From Candidatus Bathyarchaeota archaeon (lineage in GTDB: Archaea; Thermoproteota; Bathyarchaeia; TCS64): 32,987 nucleotides of DNA. A program made the position numbers and the translations under genes. The notes under the pieces were generated by a model, which saw only the letters and a list, made by a program, of their open reading frames with translations, had not been told where the DNA came from and ran no database searches. Each line of letters starts with the position of its first letter. The first letter of the stretch is position 1. Of this stretch, positions 22,295 to 31,554 are shown piece after piece. Location of the stretch: NCBI GenBank assembly GCA_017883585.1, contig JADGNG010000012.1:1-32987 (forward strand), given 5' to 3'.

Positions 22295-24457
22295 ATGAAA
22301 AAAGAGGCTCAACCCCAAGCCCCACATTTTATACGCGTTGAAGTGGAGTCAGGTGTACTCACAAGGACCGCGTGTTTTAGAATGCAAGGCAAGGAATGGG
22401 TGACGATCCGGAGGAACGTCTGCCAGGTCTGCTATTGCGACTGCGGTATGCTCACCTACATGAGGGGAGGAAAAGTCATCAAGGTCGAGGGGGACCCGGA
22501 TAACCCCCACAACAGGGGTGCCCTCTGCGCCCAGGGTCGCTCCGCCCGCCAGATGCTCTACAACCCCGACCGCCTCAAGTATCCCCTGAAAAGGGTAGAT
22601 GAGAGGGGTAGCGGGGAGTGGGAGCGCATAACCTGGGACGAAGCTATCGATACCATCGCCGATAAGCTCCTTGAGGTCAAGGGGAAATACGGCCCCGAGG
22701 CACTAGCCTTCGTCAAAGGGCCCACCCGGCAGATGATCGAGCAGGTCTTCCAGCGTTTCTGCTACGCCTACGGGACCCCGAACTACTCGGGTAACTGGAG
22801 CTTCTGCGTCGGCCCAAAGATGATCGGGTATACCTACACCTATGGGAAGACGCCACAGGGACCGCCCTACATGCCTTGGAGCGATTTCAGGAACTCGAAA
22901 TACATAATGCTCTTCGGCACAAACCCGGCTCTGAGCTTTATACATCGCTACCCTCGGATCATGTCGGACATCCTCGACGCGAAGGAGGCGGGGGCGAAGC
23001 TCGTCGTAGTCGACCCCCGCTTCACTGAGACGGCGTCGAAGGCTGACATATACCTCCCTATAAAGCCGGGGACGGACGCGGCCCTCATACTCGCCATGAT
23101 ACGGACAATCATAAGCGAGGGTTTGCACGACGCGGAGTTCGTCGAGAAGTACACCATCGGGTTCGAGAGACTGATGGAGCACGTCCAGAAGTACACGCCT
23201 GAGTACGCGGAGGAGATAACGGGGATACCCGCCGAGCGTATCGTCGAGGTCGCGAGGCAGTTCGCCACCGCGAAGCCGGCATGTCTCGACAGACGCGAAG
23301 GCGTACTCCACCACACCAACTCGACGCACACGCTCCGCGCCATGGCGATCCTCCTCGCCATCACGGGGAACGTCGACAAGCCGGGAGCCCTCCTCTTCAA
23401 CCCCGGGGTCAATCTCGCCAACATTACGCGAAAGGAGAGGCTCAAGGCGAGGCCCATCTGGGCGGAGAGGTTCCCACTGGTCGAGGACGCCACAGCAATC
23501 TTCGCCGAGGCCATACTAACCGGGAAGCCACATCTCATCAGGGCAATGATGTGCACTATAGCCAACCCCATCCAAGAGTACCCAAACACGACGAAGGTCA
23601 GGGAGGCGCTCGCCAGTCTCGACTTCCTCGTCGTCGACGACCTCTTCATGACGGAAACGGCGAAGATGGCGGATATAGTCCTCCCCGCTTCCACTTTCTT
23701 CGAGAAGACCGAGCTCTGCAAGACGCAGAACCTCGCCCTCACAAAGTACTTCCAGGTCAGTCATAGCGTGATGGAGCCGCTCTTTGAGAGCCTCCCGGAC
23801 TGGAAGTACATCTGCCTGCTCGCTAAGAGGATGAGGCTCGACGGCTTCGACTACGCTGACGAGGACGAGATCATAAACGAGATAATCAAGCCAGTGGGCG
23901 TGAGGGTAACTGACCTCGGGGAGTCAGGCGTTTACTCGGTGCCCTTCGAGATCGGGCTCCTCCGCAAGAACGGCTTCAACACCCCCTCGGGTAAGATCGA
24001 GTTGTACTCTTCGCAGCTTGAGAAACTCGGCTACGACCCGCTACCCAGCTATGTGGAGCCCCCCGAGACAAGGACTAGCCAACCAGACGCCGCGAAGAAG
24101 TACCCCTTCACCCTAATCACGGGCTCCAAGACCGCGGTCTACCACCACTCACAACAGAGGAACTACAGCTGGCTCCGCGGCTACGTCCCCGAGCCTATAG
24201 TTGAGATAAATTACAAAACCGCGTCACGCCTGAGTATCGGGGAAGGGGATCTCGTGATAGTCGAGGGACTCAGGGGCGAGGCGAAACTGAAGGCCAAGCT
24301 TACAACTGGCATCCGGGAGGACGTCGTCTCCGTCACCCACGGCTGGGAAGGGGAGTCGAATATAAACTACCTCACCGATGACACCCAACTCGACCCCATA
24401 GCCGCGATGCCCGCCTTCAGGACTATCCTCTGTAACATACGGAGGGCTGAGCCATGA
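22295..24457 (+). CDS. Molybdopterin (Mo/W-bisPGD) oxidoreductase, DMSO reductase superfamily
   Basis: 720 aa; [4Fe-4S] motif CQVCYCDCGM...GALCAQGRSARQMLYNPDRLKYPLKRV, WDEAIDTIADKL, NWSFCVGPKM, VVVDPRFTETASKADIYLPIKPGTDAAL, C-terminal molydopterin-dinucleotide-binding-type domain. Confidence 0.93.
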   Translation: MKKEAQPQAPHFIRVEVESGVLTRTACFRMQGKEWVTIRRNVCQVCYCDCGMLTYMRGGKVIKVEGDPDNPHNRGALCAQGRSARQMLYNPDRLKYPLKRVDERGSGEWERITWDEAIDTIADKLLEVKGKYGPEALAFVKGPTRQMIEQVFQRFCYAYGTPNYSGNWSFCVGPKMIGYTYTYGKTPQGPPYMPWSDFRNSKYIMLFGTNPALSFIHRYPRIMSDILDAKEAGAKLVVVDPRFTETASKADIYLPIKPGTDAALILAMIRTIISEGLHDAEFVEKYTIGFERLMEHVQKYTPEYAEEITGIPAERIVEVARQFATAKPACLDRREGVLHHTNSTHTLRAMAILLAITGNVDKPGALLFNPGVNLANITRKERLKARPIWAERFPLVEDATAIFAEAILTGKPHLIRAMMCTIANPIQEYPNTTKVREALASLDFLVVDDLFMTETAKMADIVLPASTFFEKTELCKTQNLALTKYFQVSHSVMEPLFESLPDWKYICLLAKRMRLDGFDYADEDEIINEIIKPVGVRVTDLGESGVYSVPFEIGLLRKNGFNTPSGKIELYSSQLEKLGYDPLPSYVEPPETRTSQPDAAKKYPFTLITGSKTAVYHHSQQRNYSWLRGYVPEPIVEINYKTASRLSIGEGDLVIVEGLRGEAKLKAKLTTGIREDVVSVTHGWEGESNINYLTDDTQLDPIAAMPAFRTILCNIRRAEP

Positions 24458-24855
24458 CCCAGAAGAAGGCGTTTCTGGTAAATATCGACCGATGCATAGG
24501 CTGCTACGCCTGTGAGATCGCCTGTAAGGATGAGAACGACCTCTCCCCTGGGATAAAGCGCGTCATGATCAGGATAGTTGAGGCGGGAGAGCTGAACAGG
24601 TCCTACGTCCCCGAGTTTAGCCTCGAGACGATTGATGTCTCCGGTTGCACACTCTGCCCCCAGCTGCAGATCGAGGGGAGGAGGCCCGCGTGCGTCAACA
24701 ACTGCCTCACCAACGCCTTGGACTTCGGAGACCTCGAGGAAATGAAGAAGCAGGCGGAGAAGATACGGGGCTTCAAGTTCGAGAAGGAGCAGAAGAAGGG
24801 CATCACAGTCTATGCTTCGAAGAAACCCCTAGACACCTTTCTAGCACCCGCCTAA
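24454..24855 (+). CDS. 4Fe-4S ferredoxin-type subunit of the Mo oxidoreductase (8-Cys form)
   Basis: 133 aa; CIGCYACEIACKDEND and CTLC...ACVNNCLTNAL; 4-nt overlap with the catalytic subunit gene. Confidence 0.9.
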   Translation: MTQKKAFLVNIDRCIGCYACEIACKDENDLSPGIKRVMIRIVEAGELNRSYVPEFSLETIDVSGCTLCPQLQIEGRRPACVNNCLTNALDFGDLEEMKKQAEKIRGFKFEKEQKKGITVYASKKPLDTFLAPA

Positions 24856-25865: not shown

Positions 25866-27122
25866 CTACTTGATGAGGGTGCCTAGGACGTCGAACTGGG
25901 CATCACGGGGCTCGCCGAGGAGTTCCACTCTCTTGGCGAGTTTCTTATCCTTCTTGACCACCTCAGCCAAGCTCTCACTGATCCAGATGTGCTCAAGCTC
26001 CTGAGTGTTCTTTATAACCATCATCCTAACCCTTGACCGGTCCACGGGACCTATGACACGTAGGGCGGTGTCGATGGCGTCCCTGTCGTTGGGTAGCCAT
26101 ATTGGCACCTTCCCCGTGGCGCATGTGCCCTGAGTAAGGCAGTTCACATAGGTGGAGGGGTAGTCGATCTTGTCGAAGACACGGCGCGTGATGAGGTCGG
26201 CTAAGCCGATTCCGATAGCGTTGCCGTGCGTCTCCTCGGAGAGGTCGAGGACCACGATCTTGTCTATCTTCGCCGCGTCGGTGTCCGACTCGCCCGGCAT
26301 CCAGAAGCGCCCAGTCACGTTCGTGTCCATACCTACGCCGCTGATATTCTTCCCGATCTCCTCGACGACGAGCACGTCGAGCTCCTTGAATGGGAGTCGG
26401 GCTAAGAGACCCTTCGCCTCCTTTAGGAGCTTCAACTCGGCTGCCTCGAATTCGTTTGGTTCGAGTGCGACGACCTTCACGGTCTCGTGGCGGGCGTTCT
26501 CAAGGAGGGCTAGACCCATGAGTATTGGCGCCTTCTCCATGATGAGGCGCGCAGCAGCGGGTAGGAGCGTATGATAGCCCTCGTAGAGGTTGTGGTGGAT
26601 CATCTCGGCCCCCTTCTGCTTCCCGAGGCCGATGGCCATCATCTTCATGAGGCCACTCTCGATCTCCCCCTTGAAGTCGGTGTGCGGTTTGATCCTGCCG
26701 ACGACTATTATACCGTCGGCCCTGATGGCGTTCCTGTCGACGTAGACGGGCGTTCCCCCGATCTCCCCGATCTTGTCGACCTCCATGCTGCTGATTATGG
26801 GGGCGCAGACACTCTCTTCGGTGATTCCAAGGCTTCTGAGGGTCTCGACCTGCCCATGTGGCGTGGCTCCGCCATGGCTCCCCATCGCGGGGATAAGGAA
26901 CGGCTCACCACCTGCAGCCTTCACCTCCTCGACGACGGTCCGCAGAATCTCGGGGATGTTAGCGATGCCGCGGCTACCCGCCGTGATCGCTATCCTTTGC
27001 CCCTTCCTGACCTTCTTCGCAAGCCCCTTCGAGTTGAGCTGGCGCCTGATCTCGGTTACAAAATCATCTAGGCAGGGCTGATCGATAACCTGCCTCGCCT
27101 CGACCATCTTGGGGAAGCTCAT
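25866..27122 (-). CDS. LarA/DUF2088-like protein (lactate racemase domain family)
   Basis: From MSFPKMVEARQV at 27122; RIAITAGSRGIANIPEIL, FLIPAMGSHGGATPHGQ, IIVVGRIKPHTDFKGEIESGLMKMMAIGLGKQKGAEMIHH. Confidence 0.75.
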   Translation of the reverse strand: MSFPKMVEARQVIDQPCLDDFVTEIRRQLNSKGLAKKVRKGQRIAITAGSRGIANIPEILRTVVEEVKAAGGEPFLIPAMGSHGGATPHGQVETLRSLGITEESVCAPIISSMEVDKIGEIGGTPVYVDRNAIRADGIIVVGRIKPHTDFKGEIESGLMKMMAIGLGKQKGAEMIHHNLYEGYHTLLPAAARLIMEKAPILMGLALLENARHETVKVVALEPNEFEAAELKLLKEAKGLLARLPFKELDVLVVEEIGKNISGVGMDTNVTGRFWMPGESDTDAAKIDKIVVLDLSEETHGNAIGIGLADLITRRVFDKIDYPSTYVNCLTQGTCATGKVPIWLPNDRDAIDTALRVIGPVDRSRVRMMVIKNTQELEHIWISESLAEVVKKDKKLAKRVELLGEPRDAQFDVLGTLIK

Positions 27123-27147
27123 TGACGATCGGTAGGTGGCGCTGGGA

Positions 27148-28194
27148 TTAAGCAGTTTTCTTCCTGAGGCGGACATCAGCCATCTGGGCGGCCGTCTTTA
27201 TAGCGTCGATTAGGCTCTGGGGGTTCGCGGTGCCTTCGCGTCGGCCCGCCTTACCGTAGGCGGTTCCGTGGTCGACACTCGTCCGCACGAAGGGGAGGCC
27301 GACGGTCATGTTTACTCCGCTGACATCCTCCCACTTTCCAGTCGCCTCATCGAACCTGAAGCCTTGGAGCTTGACTGGGATGTGCCCTTGGTCGTGGTAC
27401 ATGGCGACTACGACGTCGTAAATGCCGCCGACAGCTTTCGAGAAGACGGTATCCGGCGGCACGGGGCCTTCGACGATCATACCCGCCTTCCTTGCCTCGT
27501 CTATCGCCGGCGCAATGACCTCTATCTCCTCCCTCCCGAAGAGCCCGCCCTCCCCCGAATGGGGATTGAGCCCCGAGACTCCTATCCTTGGTCTGTCGAA
27601 TCCGAGGCTCCTGGTCGCCTCGTGGGCGACCCTGATCTTCTTGAAGACCCGGTCCTTGGTTATGAGGTCAGGGACCTCCCGGAGGCTGACGTGTGTGGTT
27701 ATGTGGACGACCCTGAGATTCCCCGCAATGAGCATCATTGCGTAGTCTTGTGTGTGGGCGAGTTCGGCGAGGAGCTCTGTGTGCCCCGGATATTTGTACC
27801 CCGCCATGTGCATCGCTTCCTTATTCAGCGGCGCAGTGACCATGCCGTCGACCTCGTCCCTCATCGCCATCTCCGCCGCCTTTAAGACGAACTCGACGGA
27901 TGCCTTCCCAGCCATCGACTGGGGCCTTCCCATGATAAGGGAGGAGGTGTCGACGTTGTCGAGGCTGATCATGTCGATTGTGCCACGTCTGTATAGCCCA
28001 TCTGTAGGGAAGTCGACCTTCTTAACTGCGAGGTTGAGCCCCGCGACCTCAAGCCCCATGTTCATAGCGTCGGCGTCCCCGATTACGAGGGGGCGGCAGA
28101 CGCCGTAGACCTCGTCCGTGTTGAGGGCCTTTGCTATGATCTCTGGCCCTATCCCGGCTACGTCACCCATCGTGATCGCAAGTAGTGGTCTCAT
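27148..28194 (-). CDS. PdxA-family dehydrogenase (PdxA2-like, 4-phospho-tetronate dehydrogenase candidate)
   Basis: From MRPLLAITMGDVAGIGPEIIAKAL; KEAMHMAGYKYPGHTELLAEL, GVSGLNPHSGEGGLFGREE, MYHDQGHIPVKLQGF. The upstream extension in the ORF track overlaps the kinase gene and is rejected. Confidence 0.92.
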   Translation of the reverse strand: MRPLLAITMGDVAGIGPEIIAKALNTDEVYGVCRPLVIGDADAMNMGLEVAGLNLAVKKVDFPTDGLYRRGTIDMISLDNVDTSSLIMGRPQSMAGKASVEFVLKAAEMAMRDEVDGMVTAPLNKEAMHMAGYKYPGHTELLAELAHTQDYAMMLIAGNLRVVHITTHVSLREVPDLITKDRVFKKIRVAHEATRSLGFDRPRIGVSGLNPHSGEGGLFGREEIEVIAPAIDEARKAGMIVEGPVPPDTVFSKAVGGIYDVVVAMYHDQGHIPVKLQGFRFDEATGKWEDVSGVNMTVGLPFVRTSVDHGTAYGKAGRREGTANPQSLIDAIKTAAQMADVRLRKKTA

Positions 28195-29441
28195 TTCGAC
28201 GTCAACCTCCTGAGCCTCTGTGTCGCATGGACGAGGCTGTCCTCGACGCCAAACCCACCCGCTTTCGTTACGGCAAGCATCCCGTTGCTTAGCCTGACGA
28301 GTGGTATTCCCGGCTCGATCTCTTCCATGATCGAGACCCTGTCGGCTTGGAGCTTCTGGCACACCATCAGGCTGGTGGCTCCTCCGGTAAGTATGAGTCC
28401 AAGGACCTCCGCCTCGTTGAGTACAGCGGATGTAACCTCACCTATTGCCTCTTCGATGAAAAGCTTCGCCTCGTTTTCCTTTATTCCGTGTCCGAGGGCG
28501 TGTGAGATGAACTCGTCGGCGGAGCCCTCCTTGGGAGCGGAGGTGATCGAGACATCCACTCCCACCTTAAGGGCGGCGACCACCTCCCCCACGCACCGCC
28601 TCACCTCAAACTTCGCTACGGGCCCACCGTCTATCAGCTTCAGAATCCCTATCTCGATCTCCCTGAAGCCGAGACGATCATGTAGTTTGTGCACCTGAAT
28701 CCGGCTGAGGTGCCTCGTGCTCCCGCAGACTGAGAGGACGGGCTTCGGAGCTCTCATGCCGAAGCCGATGGGTATCTCGCTCGCGAAACCCGCTGAGCCG
28801 ACGAAGACCTTCGTTTCCCCAGCGGCGCGTGATATGTCAATGAGGTGCTTCTCGCTGAGGACATCGAAGACGATTATCTCGACACGACTCTTCTTTAGCT
28901 CCTCAACGGCTGACTTGATCGATTCTACACCCCCATTAACCTTCTCGAAGTCTACGATACCGACTATGCGCTTGCTCTGCACCCCGATGATGGCCTCTAT
29001 CTCGGGAGTCTTCGCTCCAAGCTCGTTGACGTACTCAGTCTTGTCTATAGGGGTATTGTCGACGAGCTGCCTTCCGGCGAGTGTCGTCCTCCCGTAGGTC
29101 GGGTATGCGGGGGCGAAAAATGCGAGCTTCGCACTCGATGCCTCCATCACGGCGTCCAGCTCGGAGCCTATATTGCCTCGGAGGGTCGAGTCGACCTTCT
29201 TGTATATTCTTTCAGCGCCGAAACTGATCAGCTTCTCGGTGGCGCGGTAGACACGCCAAAAGGCGTCATCTGGCTTCAACCCCCTGCTCTCGGTGTCCAT
29301 CACGACCACGTCTACACCCCCGAGCTTCGAGGAGCCCTTCAACTCACCTATAATAACCTCAACGGAGAACCCCCAATTCCTGAACTGGACGCCCGTGTCG
29401 AACGCGCCGGTCAGATCGTCGGCGAGGACACCTACCTTCAA
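28191..29441 (-). CDS. DUF1537 four-carbon acid sugar kinase family protein
   Basis: 416 aa; MKVGVLADDLTGAFDTGVQF, KKVDSTLRGNIGSELDAVM, APAYPTYGRTTLAGRQLV, LILTGGATSLMVC; ATGA overlap with the pdxA-like gene. Confidence 0.92.
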   Translation of the reverse strand: MKVGVLADDLTGAFDTGVQFRNWGFSVEVIIGELKGSSKLGGVDVVVMDTESRGLKPDDAFWRVYRATEKLISFGAERIYKKVDSTLRGNIGSELDAVMEASSAKLAFFAPAYPTYGRTTLAGRQLVDNTPIDKTEYVNELGAKTPEIEAIIGVQSKRIVGIVDFEKVNGGVESIKSAVEELKKSRVEIIVFDVLSEKHLIDISRAAGETKVFVGSAGFASEIPIGFGMRAPKPVLSVCGSTRHLSRIQVHKLHDRLGFREIEIGILKLIDGGPVAKFEVRRCVGEVVAALKVGVDVSITSAPKEGSADEFISHALGHGIKENEAKLFIEEAIGEVTSAVLNEAEVLGLILTGGATSLMVCQKLQADRVSIMEEIEPGIPLVRLSNGMLAVTKAGGFGVEDSLVHATQRLRRLTSK

Positions 29442-29544
29442 AATTATCCCCGGAGTAATCTGGGGCGACGGCTAGAAAATACCTTCCATGGGCGAATTGG
29501 CCGCGACCGTAAATGCCTTTAGCCTGACAAGGCGGTGAACAAAC

Positions 29545-29934
29545 ATGGCTCAGGGATTCAACGTCAAGATAGTCGACGACTGGGTGAAGTTCTGGAACAC
29601 TTACGATCTAAACCAGGTTGAGAAGTTATTCCTGAAGGACGGTAGGGTCACCTACTTCTCCTCCGAGAGGCAAGGTGTCATCAAGGGCTATGAGGCGCTC
29701 GTGAAGCATCATGAGGGCTTTGGCTTCGTGAAAGGTGGGAAGACTCAGCCCAATAAATTGTGGCTAGAGGGGATGGATGTGGAGGACTTCGGGGACTCGG
29801 CCATTGTTTGCGCCGTCTGGTTCTTTAAACGCCCGAGCTCTGAGACGCCGCAGAAGGGCCCCGTCACTATTGTCTACCAGAGAATGCCAGGGGGCTGGCT
29901 TATAGCTCACGCCAATTTCGGGAACTACAAGTGA
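29545..29934 (+). CDS. SnoaL/NTF2-like protein
   Basis: 129 aa; VDDWVKFWNTYDLNQVEKLFLKDGRVTYFSSERQGVIKGYEALVKHHEGF...WLIAHANFGNYK. Confidence 0.75.
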   Translation: MAQGFNVKIVDDWVKFWNTYDLNQVEKLFLKDGRVTYFSSERQGVIKGYEALVKHHEGFGFVKGGKTQPNKLWLEGMDVEDFGDSAIVCAVWFFKRPSSETPQKGPVTIVYQRMPGGWLIAHANFGNYK

Positions 29935-29970
29935 CCCTCGTCCTCACAACTTGAGAGATATCTTTTTCCG

Positions 29971-31554
29971 GTGGCTGAACGGCTCAGAATGAGGCTTGCC
30001 AGCATGGGTTCTGACGTCCACTCCGAAAACGGATCACGCTGGTCCATGAAGAGGATCAGCCTCTATATTGGTCCTCTCCTGTTCATCGCGTGTCTTCTGA
30101 TTCCGAATGACCCGAACATGATCGAGGCAGCTAAGGCCGCGGGCATAACGCTCGCTGACGGACCCAAGTACGGCCTTGGGGTCCTGCTCTGGACCGCGAC
30201 GTGGTGGGTCTTCGAGACTACGAGCCTCGGCCTCGCAGCGCTTGTGCCGCCAATTCTCTTCAGCCTCGTGGGGCTGTTAGTCTGGAAGGACGCGCTCGCA
30301 CCTTTCATGGATCCACTAATCTGGGTCATCCTCGTTGGCTTCATCTTCGCGAAGTCGTTCCAGGTCTGGGGCCTCGACAAGAGGGTAGCACTCACACTCG
30401 CGAGTGTTAGCAAGACGAGAAACCCGGCGCTCGCCGCCTTCTTCGTAGCATGCCTCCCAGTCTTCCTTCTAACAGTGACGGGCTCGATGACAGCTGCTAC
30501 GAGCATCGTCTACGGGTTCGTCATCGCTTTCCTGCTCCGCCAAGGATTCAAACAGGGGAGCAGGTATGGCTCCGCAACGATGCTCGCTCTCGGGCAGGCC
30601 GCCACTGCGGGCAGCCTACTGTTCCTGACTAGCACGACGACCAACCTCATAGGTAAAAACACTGTATTCACCGCTACAGGTGGTGCAGTCAACATCACCT
30701 TCGTCGACTGGTTCTTCATCGGTACCGTGCACGCCTTCATCGGCCTCTTCCTGACGTGGTTTGTTGTCTATAGGGTCATCAAACCGGAGGTGAAGGAGCT
30801 GCCTTTCGATCCCTCGATGCTGAAAAAGGAGTTGGAGGACCTCGGCCCCATCACGAGGGGGGAGAAGATGACTATCGGCATACTCGTCTTCACGCTCCTC
30901 CTCTGGCTAATCCCGGGGATGGTGGCGAACTTCGCCGTCGACAACGCAGGGCTTCAACCGCTGAGCGCCCTGCTGGCGAAGGTCCTCCCGGAGGCGGCTC
31001 CGGCAGCTATCGCTCTGCTTCTCTTCCCGCTTCTCAAGGCGGGTGACAGGCCCCTCCTCAAGTGGGACGAGATGCTCAGGGAGTCCATCAACTGGGACAT
31101 AGTCTTCCTGGTCGGCGGCGGCATTACCCTGGGTCTGGGCCTGATGAAGAGTGGCTTCAGCAACTGGATCGGTATACTCTTTAGGGGCTTCATGGGTCCC
31201 GCGCCGAACGAGTTCGTCATCTTCGGGGCGTGCTGTCTCATCGGGTTCCTGCTGAGTTACCCTGCTTCGAACACGGGCGCGGCTTCGGTTGCGTGCCCGC
31301 TGGCAGTCAGCCTCTCTTTAGCGGCTGGGATCAACCCCATTGCCCCTGTGCTGGGGGCAGCCATCGCTACCACTATTCCAAGCACACTTCCGAGTACGAC
31401 CCCCGCCATGGCAATAGCTTACAGCTCCGGCTACGTCAGGATGAAGGACATGATCAAGGTCGGGATGATAGCGGATGTCATCCGCTTTATTCTTCTGATC
31501 CTGATTGGTCTACCTCTCATAAAGTGGTTCCTGGCGATGAGGGGCTTCATATAA
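29971..31554 (+). CDS. SLC13/DASS family permease (organic anion transporter)
   Basis: 527 aa polytopic; LIWVILVGFIFAKSFQVWGLDKR, STTTNLIGKN, LVGGGITLGLGLMKSG, SYPASNTGAASVACPLAVSL, IATTIPSTLPSTTPAMAIAYSSGY. Confidence 0.88.
   Translation: MAERLRMRLASMGSDVHSENGSRWSMKRISLYIGPLLFIACLLIPNDPNMIEAAKAAGITLADGPKYGLGVLLWTATWWVFETTSLGLAALVPPILFSLVGLLVWKDALAPFMDPLIWVILVGFIFAKSFQVWGLDKRVALTLASVSKTRNPALAAFFVACLPVFLLTVTGSMTAATSIVYGFVIAFLLRQGFKQGSRYGSATMLALGQAATAGSLLFLTSTTTNLIGKNTVFTATGGAVNITFVDWFFIGTVHAFIGLFLTWFVVYRVIKPEVKELPFDPSMLKKELEDLGPITRGEKMTIGILVFTLLLWLIPGMVANFAVDNAGLQPLSALLAKVLPEAAPAAIALLLFPLLKAGDRPLLKWDEMLRESINWDIVFLVGGGITLGLGLMKSGFSNWIGILFRGFMGPAPNEFVIFGACCLIGFLLSYPASNTGAASVACPLAVSLSLAAGINPIAPVLGAAIATTIPSTLPSTTPAMAIAYSSGYVRMKDMIKVGMIADVIRFILLILIGLPLIKWFLAMRGFI

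Follow-up and report, generated by a model that had tools for sequence, protein, structure and literature searches.

D-Threonate (2S,3R) and D-erythronate (2R,3R) have the same configuration at C3 and differ at C2 only. DtnK and DenK transfer a phosphate to O4 of D-threonate or D-erythronate, PdxA2 then oxidizes C3 of the phosphorylated acid, and the stereochemistry at C2 is lost in the subsequent decarboxylation to dihydroxyacetone phosphate (DHAP). LarA enzymes, for their part, invert C2 of 2-hydroxy acids by proton-coupled hydride transfer. In the described systems, DtnK and DenK are DUF1537 kinases (PMC10971088), and PdxA2 (EC 1.1.1.408/1.1.1.409) covers the phosphates of both epimers (PMC13185595). 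Here, we analyzed contig JADGNG010000012.1 of a “Candidatus Bathyarchaeota” archaeon (assembly GCA_017883585.1; “the window” refers to the full stretch of 32,987 nucleotides), in which a DUF1537 kinase, a PdxA2-like dehydrogenase, and a LarA homolog belonging to group 22 of the nickel-pincer cofactor (NPN)-dependent isomerases are encoded together:

28191..29441, minus strand: DUF1537 four-carbon acid-sugar kinase (D-threonate/D-erythronate kinase-like); opens the operon and has a TTG start
27148..28194, minus strand: PdxA2-like protein, putative 4-phospho-tetronate 3-dehydrogenase (decarboxylating); PF04166, start read from the sequence
25866..27122, minus strand: LarA homolog, NPN isomerase group 22 (NF052515 match), proposed tetronate C2-epimerase

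As in the DtnK/DenK-PdxA2 systems (EC 2.7.1.219/220 and 1.1.1.408/409), a DUF1537 kinase and a PdxA2-like dehydrogenase go together here, but the operon contains an additional gene for a LarA-type putative epimerase and the host is an archaeon. The kinase is nearest to the D-threonate kinase model, yet both enzymes fall below the equivalog cutoffs. The OtnK-OtnC route for L-threonate/D-erythronate also has a DUF1537 kinase and DHAP as its end product; that route uses a dehydrogenase, the OtnI isomerase, and the OtnC decarboxylase, whereas the partner here is PdxA2-like. GntE (LarAH19/20), a D-gluconate 2-epimerase, is likewise an aldonate C2 epimerase in a sugar acid context, and an NPN mechanism like that of GntE is proposed here; however, the LarA homolog of the window falls in a different LarA group, and the substrate of GntE is a hexonate, while we propose a four-carbon acid. 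With NPN_iso_grp_22, our protein shares the LarA fold, a match over the full length, and every catalytic and NPN residue, although Bathyarchaeia members are mostly without LarB, LarC, and LarE.

The minus-strand core is a tight three-gene operon in the order kinase-PdxA2-LarA. The ATG of the PdxA2-like gene and the stop of the kinase gene share 4 bp (ATGA), and 25 bases lie between the PdxA2-like gene and the LarA gene downstream. Given this overlap, the start of the PdxA2-like gene is, on the sequence, most likely the ATG at 28194 rather than the GTG at 28362, and that of the LarA homolog is most likely 27122. The original prediction had named five genes in this part of the window, and all of them were found at their positions by Pfam/NCBIfam profile matches; what had to be changed were the GTG start of the PdxA2-like gene, for which the ATG is favored, and the start of the LarA gene, now set to 27122.

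The assignment of the kinase relies on both of its Pfam domains (PF07005, 1.7e-50, and PF17042, 5e-25, i.e., SBD_N and NBD_C) and on the motifs DDLTGA, KKVDSTLRG, GGATS, and KAGGFG. Its best NCBIfam model was NF047819, D-threonate kinase, with 234 bits, whereas the 3-oxo-tetronate kinase model reached 149; the D-threonate kinase model was top scoring for the kinases of all five trios checked. The dehydrogenase (PF04166, 3.3e-104) has the GHTE motif and the metal-site histidine motifs TTHVSL, LNPH, and HDQGH. The general model TIGR00557 (351 bits) was the only PdxA model whose cutoff it passed, and its best PDB matches were 2hi1 (PdxA2) and 6e85 (D-threonate 4-phosphate dehydrogenase). Together, these protein families suggest tetronates as the substrate class.

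The Pfam Lar_N match of the third protein was weak (31.6 bits, with a cutoff of 23.3), but it matched NF052515, NPN_iso_grp_22, over its full length (533 bits versus a cutoff of 400). Residues R51, H83, H147, K160, and H176 align with R75, H108, H174, K184, and H200 of LarA, the K-to-H spacing of 16 is that of LarA, and the equivalents of all five were invariant across 33 archaeal and bacterial homologs. A PDB sequence search with the LarA profile (E value of 0.009) was too weak to carry a claim about the fold. A structure search with the AlphaFold model (pLDDT [predicted local distance difference test] of 93) gave 16 PDB matches with an E value of <0.001, all of them LarA-family proteins matched over the full length, with TM (template modeling) scores of about 0.47 to 0.57. 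Judging from the alignment and the predicted model, this protein truly has the two-domain LarA fold, and its active site is intact. Its closest named relatives are all “Candidatus Bathyarchaeota.” Two more LarA paralogs of the same genome (L002 on G000:C38 and L003 on G000:C75) are nearly identical over their length and lie on different contigs, which may reflect a recent duplication or a mixture of strains (the genome is 85% complete, with 5.9% contamination).

The arrangement was followed in 101 Bathyarchaeia genomes, including the genome of the window (G000), counting as group-22 LarA only proteins above the model cutoff. Such a protein was present in 18 of them. The kinase-PdxA2-LarA order recurs in G009, G014, G016, G018, and G021, all of the same family and some of other genera. 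In two further genomes, the pieces lie at contig ends: the trio is divided between two contigs in G002, which is of the same genus, and only PdxA2-LarA is seen in G005. All seven genomes of the family that have a DUF1537 gene have it beside this LarA. DUF1537 was found in 11 of the 18 genomes with group-22 LarA versus 8 of the 83 others (3.4 co-occurrences expected; Fisher P value of 8e-6, uncorrected for kinship). Among bacteria, 10 of 70 group-22-like LarA loci have both PdxA and a DUF1537 kinase within ca. 5.5 kb, always on the same strand. The order is either kinase-PdxA-LarA or LarA-kinase-PdxA, and the loci come from at least three phyla (Bacillota, Rubrobacteraceae, Armatimonadaceae, and unclassified bacteria). 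The arrangement exceeds chance, since other genera of the family keep the order and the bacterial loci are without exception same stranded. On a LarA tree of 93 rows, no fewer than 7 changes are required to explain the trio label (mean with shuffled labels, 15.9), indicating that the partners have joined or separated several times; the archaeal trio members form one nested group.

The original prediction had placed a DUF1537 kinase, a PdxA2-like enzyme, and a LarA-family epimerase or racemase together in an archaeon, and here domains, operon overlap, and conservation agree with it. A literature search returned no paper joining DUF1537 with DUF2088/lactate racemase, although the supplementary gene context table for group 22 of PMC7583248, which may list the link, was not covered by it. 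Neither the kinase-PdxA2 pair nor the LarA superfamily is new; the trio is apparently without a published link.

On balance, we find it somewhat probable that the operon serves the catabolism of D-tetronates (D-threonate/D-erythronate) to DHAP, with C2 epimerization by LarA. The group-22 LarA would interconvert D-threonate and D-erythronate as free acids by proton-coupled hydride transfer, and the DUF1537 kinase would phosphorylate one or both of them at O4. The PdxA2-like enzyme would then oxidize C3, and the resulting beta-keto acid would lose CO2 to give DHAP, which would enter glycolysis/gluconeogenesis. In the genus of the window, the acid may be imported by the divergently encoded SLC13 carrier. 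Because the two acids differ only at the carbon that LarA inverts, the epimerase would feed both into a single kinase/dehydrogenase line. The data show the identity of the genes, how the operon is laid out, its conservation, and the intact active site and predicted fold of LarA; we infer the substrates, the direction, the free acid rather than the phosphate as the epimerized form, the role of the transporter, and the occupancy of the site by NPN. A related reaction has been described for promiscuous LarA homologs, which convert 4-deoxy-threonate to 4-deoxy-erythronate at C2 (PMC11770544). The proposal gives a concrete candidate substrate to group-22 LarA, the C2 epimerization of D-threonate/D-erythronate, and, if true, one kinase/dehydrogenase pair serves two diastereomers.

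Several observations weigh against this proposal. The kinase is under the equivalog cutoff of the D-threonate kinase model NF047819 (234 versus 450 bits), and the dehydrogenase is under that of NF002891, D-threonate-4-phosphate dehydrogenase (331 versus 583 bits). PdxA2 may take both C2 epimers, and there would then be less need for an epimerase. The family members G012 and G025 have group-22 LarA without any DUF1537 gene, so this LarA can serve another pathway. We found no activity reported in the literature for any group-22 LarA, and group 22 is not among the LarA groups tested in PMC7583248. Finally, profile searches of the 85%-complete genome of the window detected none of LarB, LarC, and LarE.

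Some of these points would fit an acid-sugar operon with another substrate, in which LarA epimerizes a different 2-hydroxy acid (another aldonate, a phosphorylated acid, or a branched tetronate), with the kinase and PdxA2 acting on the product. DUF1537 kinases have several known substrates, both scores are below D-threonate-specific cutoffs, and D-gluconate 2-epimerases are among the known LarA homologs (PMC7583248). Other group-22 LarA genes, moreover, stand beside hexonate-type dehydratases or, in the locus L035, beside an FGGY kinase, a zinc dehydrogenase, and a 6PGDH-like enzyme. Nevertheless, the tetronate route is marked by its PdxA2 partner, and the dehydrogenase has PdxA2 and D-threonate 4-phosphate dehydrogenase as its best PDB matches, so that we regard another substrate as unlikely, though worth keeping in mind.

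Group-22 LarA genes outside the trios are commonly beside TRAP carriers and IlvD/Edd dehydratases and more rarely beside UxaA-type or enolase-superfamily dehydratases or a DapA-type aldolase. All of these are acid-sugar functions, and group 22 looks, from gene context, like a set of sugar acid C2 epimerases with varying substrates. In L035 (5428-10822), the LarA gene lies between the FGGY kinase/zinc dehydrogenase pair and the 6PGDH-like gene, possibly another acid-sugar epimerase context; its host, the bathyarchaeon G046, has LarB, LarC, and LarE. In three bacterial loci (L072, L078, and L086, from Clostridium aestuarii, Fonticella, and another member of the Bacillota), group-22 LarA is followed, in a shared order, by three genes and one with a MoCF_biosynth domain (e.g., L078:9246-11561); the three genes had no Pfam match in L078.

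The supply of the cofactor is a different matter. The original prediction tacitly took the genes for NPN synthesis to be present and suggested a search for larB, larC, and larE. The search did not bear this out: the three were not found here or in most relatives with group-22 LarA. In the genome of the window, a LarB-like match (L154) proved from its translation to be PurE, and two LarE-like matches were GuaA (L155) and a tRNA-thiolase-like protein (L156). Considering that TIGR00299 alone might miss LarC, we searched for it with PF01969 as well, which gave the same 33 genomes. Across the 101 Bathyarchaeia genomes, true LarB was present in 41, LarC in 33, and LarE in 36, mostly together, and search scores split clearly into strong matches or none. 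Lar_N proteins, on the other hand, were found in 93 genomes, and in 56 of these (24 of the 51 near-complete ones) none of the three was above the cutoff. Restricted to group-22 LarA, 16 of the 18 genomes were without all three (the exceptions are G012 and G046), and 7 of these 16 are at least 90% complete with no more than 5% contamination. In G007, a single-contig genome of the same family (92% complete), there are six Lar_N proteins and no LarB, LarC, or LarE above the cutoff. In contrast, LarC was found in all 15 bacterial genomes with group-22 LarA that were tested (Fisher P value of 1.5e-7 for the comparison with Bathyarchaeia). These absences are search results on draft genomes, and assembly gaps could be part of the cause.

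Given the missing genes in the genome of the window and in 15 other group-22 Bathyarchaeia genomes, among them the seven of high quality, the archaeal LarA might not be an NPN enzyme at all but an apoprotein, a protein with another cofactor, or one with a binding or structural role beside an ordinary kinase-PdxA2 pathway. However, the residues invariant in the 33 homologs, some of them from genomes lacking LarB, LarC, and LarE, include the cofactor lysine, the nickel histidine, and the two catalytic histidines, which argues that selection for NPN chemistry continues and makes a non-NPN protein rather improbable. The active-site residues were also intact in the Bathyarchaeia LarA paralogs checked. 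Either NPN is supplied from elsewhere, or it is made by an unknown route or replaced by another cofactor. It is conceivable, if short of probable, that many Bathyarchaeia run working LarA-type enzymes, the tetronate epimerase included, without LarB, LarC, and LarE, whether by making NPN through an unknown route, by taking it up from neighbors, or by tethering a different cofactor to the same lysine and histidines. Many near-complete archaeal genomes thus combine LarA proteins whose active sites are intact with a lack of the known nickel-pincer synthesis genes, a puzzle that turns a second route to this cofactor, or its exchange, into a directly testable question.

A kinase and a PdxA-like enzyme could also belong to vitamin B6 salvage, routing 4-hydroxythreonine into the synthesis of pyridoxal phosphate (PLP), with LarA as an incidental neighbor. 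PdxJ is required for the 4-hydroxythreonine route to PLP. In favor of salvage, the DUF1537 kinase STM0162 phosphorylates 4-hydroxy-L-threonine (PMC10971088), PdxA2 is able to perform the PdxA reaction (PMC9997740), and in the 85%-complete genome of the window, we did not find PdxS, of the deoxyxylulose phosphate-independent synthesis of vitamin B6. Salvage would, however, leave the recurrent LarA partner and the acid-sugar carriers unexplained, and we consider it highly improbable.

The original prediction had also included an SLC13 transporter, with import as its role, and a SnoaL-like protein. Both are encoded on the plus strand, divergent from the kinase, and are followed by an archaeal-type CoaD:

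29442..29544, no strand: divergent intergenic region between the kinase and the SnoaL-like gene, candidate shared promoter/operator, proposed from a pairwise alignment
29545..29934, plus strand: SnoaL/DUF4440-like small protein; subthreshold Pfam match, genus-level neighbor
29971..31554, plus strand: SLC13/DASS anion carrier, candidate importer; PF00939 and TIGR00785, genus-level neighbor

The carrier matches its family models (PF00939, 1.1e-51; TIGR00785, 212.8 bits versus a cutoff of 198.6), and the SnoaL-like protein was just under the Pfam cutoffs (DUF4440, 24.1 versus 25.2 bits; SnoaL_4, 23.5 versus 24 bits). Outside the window, L052, from the same-genus genome G002, is the only locus in which the two genes sit beside the trio. 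Of the synteny that had been predicted, the link of LarA with the kinase and PdxA2 is conserved far beyond chance, but SLC13 and SnoaL had to be demoted from the core system, their membership being unsupported beyond the genus. An SLC13 import step remains plausible at the genus level, outside the conserved system. Several bacterial trios have unrelated acid-sugar carriers nearby, namely, GntP or KdgT (L105, L112, and L127), TRAP (L078, L086, and L112), or MFS (L085), and their loci have DeoR-type or PrpR-type regulators. In the SLC13 carrier, the first of the two SNT motif positions (residues 172 to 174 and 433 to 435) has SMT and the second keeps SNT, which, speculatively, might mean a monocarboxylate rather than a dicarboxylate substrate. 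The intergenic region contains a 20-base block, GCTAGAAAATACCTTCCATG, that is identical in L052 in a pairwise alignment, making 29442..29544 a candidate shared promoter/operator.

Elsewhere in the window, a molybdopterin oxidoreductase gene (formate dehydrogenase/thiosulfate reductase-like) overlaps that of a ferredoxin-type Fe-S subunit, and rubrerythrin follows (22295-24855). An ABC ATPase is encoded between two ammonium transporter genes (PF00909; 10818-12050 and 15879-17114) that are separated by ca. 4 kb.

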